Positions 39,872 through 47,405 of a DNA stretch of 64,000 nucleotides are shown here, piece by piece. The stretch is from Halanaerobium sp. MA284_MarDTE_T2 (GTDB lineage Bacteria; Bacillota; Halanaerobiia; Halanaerobiales; Halanaerobiaceae), in contig NZ_QPJE01000001.1 in assembly GCF_003337245.1 (NCBI RefSeq), positions 124,001 through 188,000 of the forward strand. The letters run 5' to 3'. The notes beneath the pieces were generated by a model that saw only the letters and a list, made by a program, of their open reading frames with translations, was not told where the DNA came from and did not search any database. Both the position numbers and the translations under genes were made by a program. The first letter of the stretch is position 1. Each line of letters starts with the position of its first letter.

Positions 39872-40456
39872 TTATTTTAGAAAAACATGATTACCTATTT
39901 TAACAACCTTTTTTCTTTTAGCAAAAAACTCTGGATTTTTTGATTTATCAGGATTATAAAAATAAAGGCTTCCTCTGCTCGGATCATTTCCTTCAGCAGC
40001 TTCATAAGCAGCTTTATATGAATCACTGCTGGGAGACAAATTAATTTGTCCATTTTCTACTGAAGTAAACTGACCACTCTGATAGACAACTTCTTTTATA
40101 GTGTTCGGGAAGGATGGATGATAAACTCTGTTAATTATAACAGCAGCTACTGCAACTTTACCCATATAAATTTCTCCTCGTGCTTCCGCATGAACTGCTT
40201 TTGCCAGAATATTAATATCTTCAGTAGAAAATCTGTCAACTGATATGTTGTTTAAATTTTCTGCACTGCTTTTGTCATTATCAGCAAAAATTAACAGAAG
40301 AAGCATTAATCCAATACCTGTAACAACATCCTCGTTTTCAATTGAAGCAGCAGCAGCTCTACTGCTGCCTACCCCAGAAAAGAAAAACATAAATGTATTT
40401 GTTAGAAGAAATATTATTAATAAAAGTGAAACTCCTCTCCACCTTAAATGCTGCAT
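39872..40456 (-). CDS. SleB/CwlJ-type cell-wall hydrolase (Hydrolase_2)
   Basis: This 194-residue exported protein has a membrane segment at residues about 10-30 and a C-terminal Hydrolase_2 domain: LAKAVHAEARGEIYMGKVAV with the catalytic Glu, then AAVIINRVYHPSFPNTIKEV and GSLYFYNPDKS. The family contains spore-cortex lytic enzymes SleB and CwlJ and vegetative wall amidases/transglycosylases. It is the last gene of the exbB-exbD-tonB string, 20 bases after the SLH tether gene, so a vegetative envelope role is plausible. AAAGGAG precedes the ATG. Confidence 0.87.
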   Translation of the reverse strand: MQHLRWRGVSLLLIIFLLTNTFMFFFSGVGSSRAAAASIENEDVVTGIGLMLLLLIFADNDKSSAENLNNISVDRFSTEDINILAKAVHAEARGEIYMGKVAVAAVIINRVYHPSFPNTIKEVVYQSGQFTSVENGQINLSPSSDSYKAAYEAAEGNDPSRGSLYFYNPDKSKNPEFFAKRKKVVKIGNHVFLK

Positions 40457-40476
40457 AAGCTAAAATCTCCTTTAAA

Positions 40477-41238
40477 TTATAGTAATAGGGCCAGCAAAGC
40501 CAGTCCTCCTAAAATATACGCAGTATTTCCTGATCCTTTCTTTTCTGCCAGCTTTTGATTTTTTACTTCAAGTTGTTCTTCCAGGTCGGAAATTCTATTT
40601 TCCAGCTGATTAATTTTTGTCATAGCAACACTCTGACTATCCTGAAGATTTTGTATGGTGGAGCTTGATGCCAGTTCACCATCAACTCCAATATTTCTTT
40701 TAGTTAAAGCAAGTTCCTGTTCTAAATCAGATATTCTGCTCGAAAGAGAAGTAACTTCTTCCTGTAGATTTTTAATTTCTACAACTTGATCAATAATATC
40801 TGATACTTCACCTTCCAGTGAAGAAACCCTGTCGTTTACATTACCAATATCTTCATCCTGAATCATATTCTTCTGTTCAACCTTTTTAATTCTGTCCTCA
40901 AAAACTTTCTGATTTTGGGCTACTGCAACCAATTCATCTCTAAACTCAAGCGATAATTTTCTAATTACGTCTACATCTTCTTCAGATAATTCCTGAGTAC
41001 CAGCCTCCATATTGTTTAACATTCTGGCAATAATTTCGGCCAGTTCATATCTGGAAACTTTTTCATTACCCTTAAAAGTACCATCGGAATAAAGTGAAAG
41101 ATATCCTCTATCTATCAGCTGCTGAACACTGTCATATGCCCAGTGGTCTCTTGGTACATCCTTAATTTCTGCTGCCTGCCCAATGACACTAAATGTGAGC
41201 AGTAAAATCATTATTAATACTGTAACTTTAATTTTCAT
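40477..41238 (-). CDS. SLH-domain, coiled-coil, C-terminally anchored envelope tether (Omp-alpha-like)
   Basis: This 253-residue protein has a signal peptide (residues 1-22) and one SLH domain (about 23-75, IKDVPRDHWAYDSVQQLIDR ... VSRYELAEIIARML). A long coiled coil spans about 85-235, and a short hydrophobic C-terminus (TAYILGGLALLALLL) ends the chain. This is the layout of Thermotoga Omp-alpha, in which SLH binds the wall, the coil spans the periplasm and the C-terminus sits in the outer membrane. It overlaps the upstream gene by one base (TAATG). Confidence 0.82.
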   Translation of the reverse strand: MKIKVTVLIMILLLTFSVIGQAAEIKDVPRDHWAYDSVQQLIDRGYLSLYSDGTFKGNEKVSRYELAEIIARMLNNMEAGTQELSEEDVDVIRKLSLEFRDELVAVAQNQKVFEDRIKKVEQKNMIQDEDIGNVNDRVSSLEGEVSDIIDQVVEIKNLQEEVTSLSSRISDLEQELALTKRNIGVDGELASSSTIQNLQDSQSVAMTKINQLENRISDLEEQLEVKNQKLAEKKGSGNTAYILGGLALLALLL

Positions 41239-43220
41239 TATTTAGCCTCCTGTTTAATATTCTTAATATCAAGCTGTATTTCATTACCCAAACCATCAAA
41301 TGCTTTTAGATTATTGACAATAATATTACCAATATTCTCTTCTTTTTTTCTGAAGTGAAGTGTTGCCAGAACTCCTGTAGCTCTGCTAAATGGAAGCTCT
41401 TGATTAAATTCAATTAAACCATCCTTTATTTTTTTAGGTTTGTTCCATGGAAGCAGATTTCCTTCGGTCACAAATAAATTGCCTCGAGAAATATAACTTA
41501 ATCTCAATTTATCAGTGTTATAATTAAAGTTAAAACTTAAATTTTCTGCCTCTGCAATATTGGCTGCTCTAAGTTCAATAGAAATAAAGTTGCTGTCATC
41601 TTCTTCTACCACATTCAGATATATAATAGGTTTTAATTCCGGCAGACTAATTTTTTCGACAATTGTTTTTTCATACCCATTAATACCGCTAACCTTAACT
41701 GCAAAAGGAAGTTCTCCATCAATTCTTAAAGCCTCTATTAACCAGTTTACTTTTAAATTTTCCTGAGATTGAAGGTAGCCTAGGTGCTTTTTGAGTTTTT
41801 CACTGGGACCTGGGACAAGACCAGGTGGTAATATTAGTTCAGCTTCGACCCCATATAGAGATGATTCTCCACTATTACTTAATTTTGCCTGCAGCTTAAA
41901 AGGATTGGGCTTCAGCTGACCATTAATTATGCCTACATCTTCCAGTAGTGTAATTTTTGCATTTAATACTGGAGGACCAACAAATTTAACATTTCTTTCT
42001 ACCTGGTTTGAATCAGTATTATCTGCCTCCACCAGTACTCTGTAAGTTATTTCTTTTGGAATTTCTGAACCGGCTGGTTTAACATCCCATTTAAGCTGAG
42101 CAGACTCACCAGCTTTCATATTTCCAAGTTCTCTTGTTATTTTACCAGCTTCAAATGTATCAGGAAGTTCCAGTTTTACTGAAACATTTCTGGCATTTAT
42201 TTCTGAAGTGTTTTCCAAATAGGCAATAATAGGAAAACTTTCGTTGTCTTTATCCAGTGTTACTTCTGCCGGTGAAGTTACTCCCAGAGAAATAAGTCCA
42301 GGGACAATGGTAATTCCACCAAGACCATATTTAGTTATATAAGTTTTACTTTCACCTGCTGGAATTTTTTCCGGCACCCAGAACATAGCAATTGCACTGT
42401 CTATTTCATATTCACCTTTGCGAATAAATTCCTGGCCGGGATTAAAGTCAAAATCCCATATACCATCAGCCAGACTTCCCCAGTCAGCAAAATAAACTTT
42501 ATCAGGTGGGGTAACATCTGGTCCTAAAAAAGTACCTTGTGAGGTAACTTGAGGGGCAGCCAAACTGTCGAAAGCCTGCCAGAAATTATTAAGCTCTTTT
42601 TTGTAGTACAATTTATCTGTAGTCACAGCATCAGTACCTAATCTAAAAGGAGCTCCATCATTTTCTCCCAGCATAGTATCCAGCATTATCCTTAGACCAA
42701 TTTTTTGCTCTTCTTTACTGTTATTAATGATCCTATATTTTATCTGCCCTGTATCCGGAAGTCCGGTGGTAGAACTTTTTACAATACTTAATATCTGTTC
42801 AACTATAATATCTCCAAACTTTGAGCGGGTGATAATACTGTCCCCCTCAACTGTAGGAGGAGTTATAATTTCACCATAATTACCATTATTCCCAGCTCTG
42901 CGTTCAGTTTTACCGCCAAAAATATATTTTTTGTTATTTATCCAGAGTGTTGTATAGGATGTCCAGGGACTGGGTCTTCCATAAATCAGTGGTTTATTAT
43001 TATCATTATTTCTCAAAGGTGCTCCACCGGTTGTTTCAATTGCAAATCTGCCCTGGCTGTTTTCCTGCTGGTTAACAACAAGTACAATATAATCATTACC
43101 CAGTCTGAGGTTATTATTTTGATCTATATGTTTAAAAAATTTATCCTGGGCCATTACACAGCCTGAAGCTGAACTTAATGCAAGAAATAAAAGTAAAGCT
43201 AAGGAAATAGTTTTTCTCAT
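41238..43220 (-). CDS. Large secreted protein with cohesin-like C-terminal domain
   Basis: This 660-residue exported protein has a signal peptide (about 1-24; SASGC may be a lipobox variant). An N-terminal beta-rich region of unknown family follows (about 30-300). Two repeat domains resembling CARDB/DUF11-type Ig-like folds come next (about 310-420 and 430-525). The C-terminus is a cohesin-like domain (about 530-655; ISIELRAANIAEAENLSFNF, GVLATLHFRK). Cohesin folds mediate protein docking on surfaces. It starts three bases after tonB and overlaps the tether gene. The exact function is unknown. Confidence 0.75.
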   Translation of the reverse strand: MRKTISLALLLFLALSSASGCVMAQDKFFKHIDQNNNLRLGNDYIVLVVNQQENSQGRFAIETTGGAPLRNNDNNKPLIYGRPSPWTSYTTLWINNKKYIFGGKTERRAGNNGNYGEIITPPTVEGDSIITRSKFGDIIVEQILSIVKSSTTGLPDTGQIKYRIINNSKEEQKIGLRIMLDTMLGENDGAPFRLGTDAVTTDKLYYKKELNNFWQAFDSLAAPQVTSQGTFLGPDVTPPDKVYFADWGSLADGIWDFDFNPGQEFIRKGEYEIDSAIAMFWVPEKIPAGESKTYITKYGLGGITIVPGLISLGVTSPAEVTLDKDNESFPIIAYLENTSEINARNVSVKLELPDTFEAGKITRELGNMKAGESAQLKWDVKPAGSEIPKEITYRVLVEADNTDSNQVERNVKFVGPPVLNAKITLLEDVGIINGQLKPNPFKLQAKLSNSGESSLYGVEAELILPPGLVPGPSEKLKKHLGYLQSQENLKVNWLIEALRIDGELPFAVKVSGINGYEKTIVEKISLPELKPIIYLNVVEEDDSNFISIELRAANIAEAENLSFNFNYNTDKLRLSYISRGNLFVTEGNLLPWNKPKKIKDGLIEFNQELPFSRATGVLATLHFRKKEENIGNIIVNNLKAFDGLGNEIQLDIKNIKQEAK

Positions 43221-43223
43221 AAA

Positions 43224-44165
43224 TTATTCACCTCCTGTTAAAAATTCAACATTTCCAAGATTAACATCTACCTGTGAATTATCAAATTCATCAATATAGT
43301 ATTTTACTTCTATTGGTATTACATATGCTTTATTATATGATTTAAAACTCCAGCCTCTTTTTATTGTTAAAACTGCAACCCTGTCCATTGTATCATAACC
43401 TGAAGTTTCATTAATTGTGACATTTTTAACAGTTCCTTCAGGGGTAATTTCAACAGTTAATTTAACAGTACCTTCAGCCCTGCTGCCAACTAGATCTTTT
43501 GGAAAAGCAGGTCTAACTACTATACTGATTAACTCACCAGATGTAGGTGGTGGAGGTGGGGGTGGAGTCTGTTCAACTTCTTCTTCACCAGGCTTAATAT
43601 TTTCTGCACTTTGAGCACTATCTTCTGCAGTATTTTGTTCTTCTTCTATTTCTACTTCCACATCACTTTTTTCACTGCTTAAAACTTTAGTTTCTGTATT
43701 TTCACTATCATTAGTTTCTGTATCCGTAATTTCTTCCTTTATATCTTCAGTTTCCTTTTTCACTTCTTCAGCTGACGTGTTTTCCTGTGATAATTCTTCT
43801 TCTGTAATATCAGATTCCACTTCTATATTTTCTTCAATTTCAGGTTCGTGCTCCGGTTCTGGTTTTTTAATTTCTTCAGGTTCTTCTACTTCTTTAGCTT
43901 CTGTATCTTCTTTTTCTTCAGTAATTTTTTCCTGTTCTGCAGTGATTTCCTCTATTTCTTCCTGGGGAACAGGTTCTTCGGTCTGCAGTGGAGCAGGTTG
44001 ATATTCAACCAATTGAATATAGCCATAATCATTTAAATCAGTGTTTTCACCCCTAACATTCCCCTGCATAAATCCAAAAGGAATAAAATAAAGAAGTAGG
44101 AGATGAAGAATTATAGAAAAAACAACATATGCTGCTAATTTATTTTGATTATCATTTCCAGACAT
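43224..44165 (-). CDS. tonB: TonB-family energy transducer
   Basis: This 313-residue protein has an N-terminal membrane anchor with the conserved His (AAYVVFSIILHLLLLYFIPFG). A long Glu-rich, Pro-containing spacer (about 55-210, including a run of seven prolines) follows, then a C-terminal TonB domain (about 215-300; GTVKLTVEITPEGTVKNVTI, GYDTMDRVAVLTIKRGW). TonB transmits proton-motive force from ExbB/ExbD to the outer membrane. The acidic spacer is unusual, since typical ones are Pro/Lys-rich. It is the third gene after exbB and exbD. Confidence 0.93.
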   Translation of the reverse strand: MSGNDNQNKLAAYVVFSIILHLLLLYFIPFGFMQGNVRGENTDLNDYGYIQLVEYQPAPLQTEEPVPQEEIEEITAEQEKITEEKEDTEAKEVEEPEEIKKPEPEHEPEIEENIEVESDITEEELSQENTSAEEVKKETEDIKEEITDTETNDSENTETKVLSSEKSDVEVEIEEEQNTAEDSAQSAENIKPGEEEVEQTPPPPPPPTSGELISIVVRPAFPKDLVGSRAEGTVKLTVEITPEGTVKNVTINETSGYDTMDRVAVLTIKRGWSFKSYNKAYVIPIEVKYYIDEFDNSQVDVNLGNVEFLTGGE

Positions 44166-44180
44166 AACTTCACCATCCTA

Positions 44181-44585
44181 TTAATTACCTTCTTTTTCTG
44201 CCGCAAGGGCCAGCTTATATATTCCTACCTGACGCATTCCATCCATGACTGAAACGACATTTTCATATTTTGTATTTTTATCAGCACTTATGATAACAAC
44301 TAAAGAATCAGTTTCAGAGTTCCTGTTTTCAGCCTGAGCAACAATTTCAGACAGTGGTAGGTTGTTTCCATCATAAAAATAATTACCATTTTCGTCTATT
44401 TCGACTAAAAAGTTTTTGTTTGTTTGTTCGGTAGCAGTGACAGCACGCGGCAGCTGCATATCTATTCCATATGGATTTGATCTAAAAGTGGTAAATAGCA
44501 TAAAGAAAACCAATAAAAAAAATATTACATCAATCATAGGGATAATATTGATAGAACTTTTCTTTTTAAGAGTAGTTCTGAACAT
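44181..44585 (-). CDS. exbD: Biopolymer transport protein ExbD/TolR
   Basis: This 134-residue motor component has a single N-terminal membrane helix, with the conserved membrane aspartate in INIIPMIDVIFFLLVFFML, and a periplasmic ExbD/TolR domain (DENGNYFYDGNNLPLSEI, VVIISADKNTKYENVVSVMD). It uses proton flow with ExbB to drive TonB. The start is ATG at 44585 with GAGGTGAGG upstream. It overlaps the 3' end of exbB by 20 bases and lies 15 bases before tonB. Confidence 0.93.
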   Translation of the reverse strand: MFRTTLKKKSSINIIPMIDVIFFLLVFFMLFTTFRSNPYGIDMQLPRAVTATEQTNKNFLVEIDENGNYFYDGNNLPLSEIVAQAENRNSETDSLVVIISADKNTKYENVVSVMDGMRQVGIYKLALAAEKEGN

Positions 44586-45216
44586 TATCCTCACCTCTGT
44601 TACTGCCAACGACATCTATTATTTCAACCATGTTTAAATTCATTTCATGTGCTTTTTTCTCAACTTTTTGGGAAAAATATGAATAAAATACTGCTGTAGG
44701 GATAGCTATAATTAATCCCATAGCTGTACTGATAAGAGCAGCAGCAATCCCGGAACTGATCTGAGCCGGATTAGCAGCTCCTGCAGCTGTACCGAGTATA
44801 TTGAAGCTGCTGATGATACCTATAACTGTACCCAGCAGTCCCAGCAGTGGTGATATCATAGCTATTACATCAAGAATTGGAAGATGCTTTTCCATTTTTT
44901 TAATCTCATTTTCACCTACTGCCTGAAGAACTTCCCTTAGTCTGGCCGGGTTTTCACTATTATGAGCTAATGCCGTTGATAGAAGTTTGGCATTTGGTCC
45001 TTTTTTTCCTTTCAATTCGTTTAATGCACTTAAAATATCTCCCTCTTCAACCAATATTTCTATTCTTTTTATAAGTCTAAAATTATTATCTTTATGTTGG
45101 GCAAAAAATATCGCTTTTTCTATAATAACTGCAAGACTAAAAACTGATGCAAGCAGAAGTGGGATAGACATTGGACCCCCAAGTGAGAAAAAATTCCATA
45201 TACGACTCAAATTCAA
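44566..45216 (-). CDS. exbB: Biopolymer transport protein ExbB/TolQ/MotA family
   Basis: The 216-residue stator protein has three membrane helices. The last two fall in the MotA/TolQ/ExbB proton-channel segment ISPLLGLLGTVIGIISSFNI and ISSGIAAALISTAMGLIIAI. A large cytoplasmic loop separates helices 1 and 2. The start chosen is TTG at 45216, eight bases after GAGGAG; the GTG at 45225 overlaps that site. It is the first gene of the exbB-exbD-tonB string, and 90 bases separate it from the histidine kinase gene upstream on the same strand. Confidence 0.93.
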   Translation of the reverse strand: MNLSRIWNFFSLGGPMSIPLLLASVFSLAVIIEKAIFFAQHKDNNFRLIKRIEILVEEGDILSALNELKGKKGPNAKLLSTALAHNSENPARLREVLQAVGENEIKKMEKHLPILDVIAMISPLLGLLGTVIGIISSFNILGTAAGAANPAQISSGIAAALISTAMGLIIAIPTAVFYSYFSQKVEKKAHEMNLNMVEIIDVVGSNRGEDNVQNYS

Positions 45217-45306: not shown

Positions 45307-46716
45307 TTATAAGGGTAGAATAATAGTAAAAATAGTCTCTTCTTTCTTGCTTTTTACTGATATTGTTCCACCATGTGCTTCCACCAGCTCTTTTGTAACA
45401 GCAAGTCCTATACCTGTACCCCCCGTATCTTTAGATCTGGATTGGTCTGCACGATAAAACCTTTCAAAAATAAATGGCAGATCTTTTTGATCTATTTCTG
45501 GGCCAGTATTAATTATTTTTACAGCAATATGGTCGTTTAGATTTTTGCTTTCTACATTTATTTTTCCTCCTACTCTATTATATTTAACAGCATTTTCTAT
45601 TAAATTACTTAAAATCTGTATCATGCTGTCTCTATCTGCAGTTATTGATGTATTTTGTGCAAGGTCTAAATTTACAGAAATGTCTTTGTCTTTTATATTA
45701 AATTGATATTTGTTCAATATTTCGCTTAAAATGGAGCTTAAGTCAAGTCTTTCTTTATTTAAATTGATAATTTTATTCTGTGCTTCACTGTATTCCTGAA
45801 GCTGATTAATAAGTCTAATTAGGCGTTCAGACTCTTCCTGCAGCTCTTTAATGGTTTGATTATCCATTTCCATTAAACCATCCTCAACAGCTTCTAAATA
45901 GCCTTTAATAGTAGTCACCGGTGTGCGCAGCTCATGAGCCAGATCGGATGTAGAGTCTTTTCTTATTTTTTCCAGTTTTTCAAGCTTATCAGTCATTATA
46001 TTAAATGATTCTCCAAGCTGAGCAAGTTCATCATTACCTTTTATATTAACTTTCTGTTTATAGTTTCCATCAGCAACATTTAAAGCAGAACGATTTAGCT
46101 TCAGCAGGGGTCTGGTAATATATTTGGAAAGAAAAAATGCCATTAAACCGGCTGCGGTAGCTACAAATATTCCACTGATAAAAATAGCATTAAAAACACT
46201 CTTTTTAAAATACTGATAAATACCTGCCTCTGATTCTGCATTGACAGCAATTTCTTTCCAGTAAATATATGCTTTAGTAGAGTCATTAATTTTGATTTCG
46301 TTTATTCTTGTTTTACCAGGAAAATCATCAGGAGAAATTTGACTGTGAATTGGCATATGGGAAGCTCCCATCATCGGCCCCATTCTCCGCATCATATTAT
46401 TCATATGACCTTCTGTACCTGGTCTGTAAATATATTCTCCATTTTTCTGTTTTGCCAATCTAAGCCAAATTGGAATTCTATTAGCTCTAGTAAAATTATT
46501 AATAATTTTATTTAATTCAGAAGTATTAATATTATCTCTGGACAGATAATCTTTTAATATTTCCGCCAGTTCAATTATACTGTCTTCTCTCTGCATGTTC
46601 ACAAAATCATTGAAGTGTTCTCCGACGGAAAAATTAATAAAAAATCCAGCTACAGAAAGGCTCAGCACAATTAATATAATAAATATAAAAAATAATTTAA
46701 AACTGAGTTTGCTCAT
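45307..46716 (-). CDS. Sensor histidine kinase with Met/His-rich sensor loop
   Basis: This 469-residue kinase has membrane helix 1 (about 8-30), an extracytoplasmic sensor (about 31-172), helix 2 (about 175-196), HAMP (about 197-250) and a HisKA domain with DLAHELRTP (phospho-His at 261). An HATPase domain with N, G1 and G2 boxes (NLIENAVKYN, TGGTGIGLAV) ends the chain. Sensor residues 104-124 contain six or more methionines and three histidines, reminiscent of copper/silver-binding loops. It overlaps the response regulator gene by one base. Confidence 0.93.
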   Translation of the reverse strand: MSKLSFKLFFIFIILIVLSLSVAGFFINFSVGEHFNDFVNMQREDSIIELAEILKDYLSRDNINTSELNKIINNFTRANRIPIWLRLAKQKNGEYIYRPGTEGHMNNMMRRMGPMMGASHMPIHSQISPDDFPGKTRINEIKINDSTKAYIYWKEIAVNAESEAGIYQYFKKSVFNAIFISGIFVATAAGLMAFFLSKYITRPLLKLNRSALNVADGNYKQKVNIKGNDELAQLGESFNIMTDKLEKLEKIRKDSTSDLAHELRTPVTTIKGYLEAVEDGLMEMDNQTIKELQEESERLIRLINQLQEYSEAQNKIINLNKERLDLSSILSEILNKYQFNIKDKDISVNLDLAQNTSITADRDSMIQILSNLIENAVKYNRVGGKINVESKNLNDHIAVKIINTGPEIDQKDLPFIFERFYRADQSRSKDTGGTGIGLAVTKELVEAHGGTISVKSKKEETIFTIILPL

Positions 46717-47405
46717 TAGTTATCACCAACAAATTTATAACCTGCTCCATAAACTGTTATTATATATTCATCTTTGTTTAGTTCCATTTTCTTTCTTATA
46801 TTTTTAATATGAGCATCAATGGTTCTATCAAAACCGTTAAATTCGAGCCCCATAACTTTGTCAGCTAACTGTTCACGGGAAAGAACCTGTCCTGCATTAT
46901 TAACAAGTTCAAGTAAAATTTTAAATTCTGTATTTGTTAAATCTACATCTGAATCATTTAATAATACCCTCATTTCTTCAGGAAATATTTTAATTTTACC
47001 ATCTGCAAATGAAAGTATATTTGCTTTTATTTTATTCATATCTGTTCTTCTTAAAATAGCTTTTATTCTTGCGGTAAGCTCTCTTGGACTAAAAGGTTTG
47101 GTAAGATAATCATCTGCCCCATAATCAAATCCTTCAATTTTATTTTCTTCACTACTTTTGGCAGTGAGCATCAGAATTGGAATATCAGAAACCTGCCTTA
47201 TTTTTTGACAGACTTCCTCCCCACTAATTTTTGGCAGCATAAGATCCAGTACAATAAAGTCAATATTATTATCTGAATGAAAAATATCAAGAGCTTTTCT
47301 ACCATCTTCAGCTTCAACAGTGGTAAAACCACTGTCTTCTAAATATGTTTTTATCAGTTTTCTGATTTTTGCTTCATCTTCAACAATTAAAATTTTATTT
47401 TGCAT
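46716..47405 (-). CDS. OmpR/PhoB-family response regulator
   Basis: This 229-residue regulator has a receiver domain with the acidic pocket near ED (10-11), phospho-acceptor Asp at 54 (VLDLMLP) and Lys in YLTKPFSPREL. A C-terminal winged-helix DNA-binding domain follows (about 130-225; RTIDAHIKNIRKKMELN). It is the partner of the kinase encoded directly downstream. The target genes are unknown; the exbB-tonB string beginning after the kinase is an obvious candidate. AAGGTG precedes the ATG by five bases. Confidence 0.95.
   Translation of the reverse strand: MQNKILIVEDEAKIRKLIKTYLEDSGFTTVEAEDGRKALDIFHSDNNIDFIVLDLMLPKISGEEVCQKIRQVSDIPILMLTAKSSEENKIEGFDYGADDYLTKPFSPRELTARIKAILRRTDMNKIKANILSFADGKIKIFPEEMRVLLNDSDVDLTNTEFKILLELVNNAGQVLSREQLADKVMGLEFNGFDRTIDAHIKNIRKKMELNKDEYIITVYGAGYKFVGDN

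Follow-up and report, generated by a model that had tools for sequence, protein, structure and literature searches.

A conserved five-gene Ton/Tol-type unit as a candidate receptor-independent system acting on the outer membrane-wall connection of diderm Firmicutes

Introduction

In E. coli, the Tol-Pal system holds the outer membrane to the cell wall. Tol-Pal has been reported only in Gracilicutes and in no Terrabacteria, Ton systems have been detected among Firmicutes only in Negativicutes, and further systems that stabilise the outer membrane are said to remain undiscovered (PMC12204202). A 2009 paper on Halothermothrix noted ExbB, ExbD and TonB together without a receptor and suggested that they serve a different function (PMC2626281). 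In the open-licence literature we found no description of the gene set treated here beyond that remark, and TonB and ExbB go unmentioned in PMC5007114. Among described wall tethers, Omp-alpha combines an SLH domain, a long coil and a C-terminal hydrophobic helix and is regarded as a spacer that anchors the outer sheath (PMC3387000, PMC9388160). For the route by which energy reaches the connection between outer membrane and wall in diderm Terrabacteria, the gene unit described below is a concrete candidate.

Results

The window, by which we mean the whole 64,000-nucleotide stretch of Halanaerobium DNA analysed, carries six minus-strand open reading frames whose order, as proposed in a first-pass annotation, holds to the base: exbB, exbD, tonB, a gene for a 660-residue exported protein (working name X660), a gene for an SLH/coiled-coil protein (working name SLHcc) and a gene for a SleB-type hydrolase (Table 1). 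The spacings given there hold as well, with exbB and exbD overlapping by 20 bases (44566-44585), gaps of 15 bases between exbD and tonB and 3 between tonB and X660, a 1-base overlap of X660 and SLHcc, and 20 bases between SLHcc and the hydrolase gene. As the start of exbB, TTG 45216 is preferable to the mechanical GTG 45225 because GAGGAG stands 8 bases ahead of it. The terminator that had been placed after the string is present as a stem of 20 pairs, and since the hydrolase gene and gyrA converge on it from either side, it may act for both. A promoter scan returned 49 matches against 40.4 expected, which is near chance, and we claim no promoter. The histidine kinase and response regulator pair lies 81-90 bases from exbB in the same direction and was found in no locus outside the window's own family; its products are possible regulators, with envelope-stress control a possible role.

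Table 1. Coordinates and assignments of the features in and around the gene string
Feature	Position	Strand	Description
exbB	44566..45216	-	MotA/TolQ/ExbB-family proton-channel protein; Pfam MotA_ExbB 2e-33
exbD	44181..44585	-	ExbD/TolR-family; Pfam ExbD 1e-30
tonB	43224..44165	-	N-terminal membrane helix with TonB-type His, acidic/proline-rich linker, C-terminal domain; Pfam TonB_C 1.7e-12
X660	41238..43220	-	Exported, periplasmic; mutarotase-like sandwich, two Ig-like domains and cohesin fold (AlphaFold2)
SLHcc	40477..41238	-	Signal peptide, one SLH domain, coiled coil, C-terminal hydrophobic helix; wall tether; Pfam SLH 7e-9
SleB-type cell-wall hydrolase	39872..40456	-	Pfam Hydrolase_2 6e-34; accessory
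Intrinsic terminator-like stem-loop	39774..39818	-	20-pair stem, 5-base loop
Histidine kinase and response regulator	45307..47405	-	Open reading frames directly upstream of exbB

Counting the window's own genome, 58 of 61 contained a relative of X660, and the DNA read around these matches keeps the exbB-exbD-tonB-X660-SLHcc-hydrolase order through the class Halanaerobiia; in each of the four loci that lack one of the first five genes, the contig stops close to the cluster. When 84,980 species genomes were scanned, 223 relatives emerged, and the best 80 of these 223, which were fetched, come from Halanaerobiia, from metagenome-assembled genomes (MAGs) labelled Limnochordia, from Hydrogenispora and from many genomes labelled only Bacillota. 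In these 80 loci, whichever of the five genes are present stand in order; all five occur in 70, and each of the ten incomplete loci ends near the cluster. Where the contig allows, the five-gene unit is fixed in 57 loci on the Halanaerobiia side and in about 60 others (Limnochordia, Hydrogenispora and unnamed Bacillota MAGs), with internal gaps that rarely exceed 60 bases. The surroundings change, with gyrA, spoIIA together with chemotaxis (che) genes, or fatty-acid genes as neighbours, and the five genes are therefore kept as a unit rather than through general conservation of gene order. The order exbB-exbD-tonB-X660-SLHcc is conserved beyond chance both in the class and outside it, and this shared synteny points to a common process while leaving its nature unspecified.

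The check put forward in the first-pass annotation, conservation of the string in relatives, was passed strongly by these five genes and failed by the sixth. The hydrolase retains E91 and E95 in 56 of 56 homologues. Its gene is absent from every locus outside Halanaerobiia among the best 80 of 223 relatives, and within the class it often lies farther off, with ndk intervening in the two examples read. We accordingly rejected it as a core member: the hydrolase is a lineage-specific accessory and the conserved unit consists of five genes. A nucleoside diphosphate kinase-like gene stands between SLHcc and the hydrolase gene in loci from other families of the class (L032 and L041).

The suggested link between the gene set and an outer membrane could be put in numbers. 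Across 259 Bacillota genomes, full-length X660, defined by long matches to most of its profile, was detected in 56 (two of them split over contigs) and Omp85/BamA in 64. X660 occurred in 56 of the 64 Omp85-positive genomes versus none of the 195 Omp85-negative ones (Fisher p 1e-48, a value that ignores shared descent among the genomes), and Omp85 was found in all 26 carriers outside Halanaerobiia that were tested separately. The eight Omp85-positive genomes without X660 fall in two families, and in the loci read from them TamB and BamA lie close to OmpH, joined in one locus by LpxC and FabZ. Such an arrangement resembles the one reported for the outer-membrane cluster of Negativicutes (PMC5007114), from which we infer that the eight are Negativicutes. 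A genome of the window's phylum from another class (G060) contained no Omp85, no X660 and no Plug domain. The system is kept only where an outer membrane exists.

The first three proteins carry the MotA_ExbB, ExbD and TonB_C domains together with the characteristic motor residues, which do not vary among the aligned homologues that cover each site: in ExbB the channel threonines T133 and T167 (numbered from GTG 45225; about 105 homologues), in ExbD the membrane aspartate D19 (107 of 107) and in TonB H21 (107 of 107). The TonB family profile has its best PDB matches in TonB C-terminal domains (3.9e-11), and the domain resembles TonB rather than TolA structures. TolQ and TolR models outscore those for ExbB and ExbD on the window's motor, yet far below cut-off. 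In the window's genome the receptor-linked ExbB and ExbD likewise reach their highest scores against TolQ and TolR, and we rejected these scores as evidence that the motor is closer to Tol than to Ton.

That receptor-linked pair belongs to the single TonB-dependent receptor of the genome, a canonical one followed by tonB, exbB and exbD (L091:9385-13444, contig C39) and separate from the window's cluster; its ExbB is 29% identical to that of the window. The first-pass annotation was right that no receptor accompanies the string, and that the motor does not need one is supported by the wider sample: of 67 carriers tested (one genome entering the count twice), 40 gave no Plug domain, and these include closed genomes, G017 for example. 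Plug proteins were found in 27 of 68 genomes tested, and these, together with the TonB-type C-terminal domain, speak for an ordinary receptor-serving Ton system with incidental neighbours. This explanation is largely refuted, and we consider it highly improbable, given that most carriers have no Plug protein, that the window's genome supplies its receptor with a Ton set of its own, and that X660 and SLHcc remain attached in all neighbourhoods. The five-gene unit is as a rule independent of a receptor, and in carriers that have one this motor may use it.

X660 gave only sub-threshold matches to Pfam and NCBIfam models (NPCBM_assoc, CARDB and cohesin, the last with E 0.058 for the single sequence). 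We relied on its AlphaFold2 model (mean pLDDT 87) and on domain-level structural alignment, setting aside a whole-model Foldseek search that returned mostly long multi-Ig proteins at TM 0.1-0.25. About residues 27-304 align to galactose mutarotases (GalM, Z 15.7 over 211 residues, 2.8 A), two Ig-like domains are modelled at about residues 310-525, and about residues 529-657 align to cohesins (Z 14.7 over 121 residues, 2.6 A). The family profile also matches PDB cohesins at 1.5e-10, so that the cohesin-like domain recognised earlier is confirmed by profile and structure alike. Across 38 sequences the first domain has no His or Glu that is strictly kept, although E270 is near-invariant, and on this ground we would ascribe to it binding rather than mutarotase activity. 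Two other assignments were rejected: X660 is not taken as a lipoprotein, the Cys of the window's signal peptide not being conserved, and its cohesin lies outside any cellulosome, since no dockerin occurs in the window's genome or in 45 of the 47 genomes examined for them.

Two observations on related sequences may be recorded here. One genome of the same order (G022) contains thirty-two dockerin domains, which suggests a cellulosome in a diderm Halanaerobiales genome. An Omp85-negative genome (L183:10089-14981) has the N-terminal part of X660 fused to an RHS protein of 19 repeats, the two halves being separated by a single in-frame TAG, suggesting a reusable surface or glycan module.

The sugar-handling fold of the main domain of X660, with its many invariant residues, bears on a second explanation, in which the motor would power transport over the periplasm or outer membrane by way of a partner whose gene lies elsewhere (OmpM, a divergent receptor or a glycan/LPS export route), X660 would serve as a cargo or glycan adaptor, and SLHcc would hold the complex at the wall. 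Energising transport is the usual role of Ton systems, and some receptors may have diverged too far for the Plug model to recognise them. Against this, no outer-membrane barrel is encoded within the unit at any locus, the recognisable receptor in the case examined has a separate Ton set beside it, and a wall tether would be an unusual fixed partner for a transporter; we regard this explanation as unlikely.

The plan of SLHcc, from signal peptide through a single SLH domain and coiled coil to the C-terminal hydrophobic helix, is found in essentially all complete homologues, whose lengths range from about 211 to 1447 residues. In the longest (L161:9966-14309), which far exceeds the window's protein in size, most residues fall in the stretch that separates the SLH domain from the C-terminal helix. 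The best PDB relatives of the SLHcc profile are Deinococcus SlpA (2e-23) and Veillonella OmpM (1.3e-20), and the similarity takes in the SLH domain together with a portion of the stalk. In the OmpM of Veillonella, a diderm Firmicute, the tyrosines of the HWAY and RYE motifs have been tied to wall binding (PMC10628300), and the residues of both motifs are retained in SLHcc. The protein ends about 20 residues past its coil with the hydrophobic helix and has no C-terminal beta-barrel. Apart from SLHcc, a single SLH protein was found in the window's genome, an OmpM-like protein of 684 residues (L179:7541-9595, contig C4), whose SLH-stalk part is homologous to SLHcc (27% identity) and whose long C-terminal region is probably a barrel. 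Lengths of SLHcc and TonB showed no overall covariation (rho 0.05, n=113) and correlations of opposite sign in two subsets, and we rejected the idea that the two are matched in length.

Which membrane the helix enters separates the remaining readings. By our estimate the coil of SLHcc spans about 155 residues versus about 100 in the genome's own OmpM, and because of this greater length the helix could possibly be an inner-membrane anchor, the form that such anchors usually take. SLHcc would then tie the inner membrane to the wall, X660 would sit on a wall polymer, the motor would sense or adjust wall synthesis or hydrolysis, and the hydrolase that adjoins the unit in Halanaerobiia would be its effector there. 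The strict co-occurrence with Omp85 indicates instead a system that matters only when an outer membrane is present; moreover, the hydrolase is absent elsewhere, and in Thermotoga the same architecture is reported as an outer-sheath spacer (PMC3387000, PMC9388160). An inner membrane-wall link thus seems to us less probable still than transport.

Discussion

We propose that exbB, exbD, tonB, X660 and SLHcc encode a receptor-independent system of Ton/Tol type that acts on the connection between outer membrane and wall in diderm Firmicutes other than Negativicutes, a reading of sequence and gene order to which we assign a probability of roughly 0.6. These bacteria would probably use it to hold or pull the outer membrane to the wall. 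ExbB and ExbD, judging from their invariant residues, would form a proton-driven inner-membrane motor that works TonB, and TonB would extend into the periplasm to engage X660, SLHcc or both in place of a receptor. SLHcc would grip the wall by its SLH domain, and its C-terminal helix would sit in a membrane, which, by comparison with Omp-alpha of Thermotoga, is probably the outer one, and X660, with its predicted sugar-binding-type domain and cohesin fold, may connect TonB, the tether and envelope glycan. So arranged, the motor could pull, load or relocate the link between outer membrane and wall, for example in growth or constriction, and in Halanaerobiia a wall hydrolase has been added beside the system.

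By analogy, ExbBD would correspond to TolQR, TonB to TolA, X660 to TolB and SLHcc to Pal, the periplasmic parts being unrelated. We advance more tentatively, at somewhat below even odds, the stronger idea that the unit is the functional counterpart of Tol-Pal in Terrabacteria, assembled independently, and that it anchors and constricts the outer membrane through a sugar-binding/cohesin adaptor and an SLH tether. The presence of the five-gene unit follows BamA across the Bacillota sample, and if it is a true counterpart, the disappearance of the unit and that of the outer membrane could be connected events in monoderm Firmicutes. Since none of the Omp85-negative genomes sampled carries the unit, it offers a molecular handle on the diderm-to-monoderm transition.

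Several described systems resemble the unit in part. PorE of Bacteroidetes, itself a proposed tether (PMC12204202), likewise belongs to a proposed non-classical outer membrane-wall system with a Ton/Tol-type transducer, but is a single fusion of TolB-, CpoB- and Pal-like domains, none of which was found in the unit. Cellulosomal scaffoldins share the cohesin fold of the C-terminal domain of X660, which, unlike them, is periplasmic, has a single cohesin and occurs in genomes nearly always devoid of dockerins. The stalked porins OmpM and SlpA, which tether the outer membrane, share with SLHcc a homologous SLH domain and the beginning of the stalk, whereas SLHcc carries a terminal helix in place of their barrel. 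Thermotoga Omp-alpha (OmpA1), as described, matches SLHcc in its SLH domain, long coiled coil, C-terminal hydrophobic helix and lack of a barrel; SLHcc is co-encoded with a motor operon, and the likeness is to the published plan of Omp-alpha. With ExbB-ExbD-TonB the unit has in common the families of motor and transducer and their catalytic residues, and it differs in that most carriers have no receptor and in adding two conserved exported partners.

As to Tol-Pal, a TolB_N domain, recovered from the E. coli control, was missing from 48 of 49 genomes, and G081 gave one weak match; no Pal/OmpA domain occurs in the unit, and the only OmpA-domain protein of the window's genome is MotB beside MotA and FliM. 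Because TolB and Pal are absent, the unit itself is not Tol-Pal; it occurs in Terrabacteria and has instead a TonB-type C-terminal domain, with X660 and a tether of SLH type. Their periplasmic parts differ while the plan is shared: each joins a proton-channel pair and a periplasmic force transducer, in one operon, to a soluble periplasmic protein and a wall-binding tether, does not exist for receptors, and is tied to having an outer membrane.
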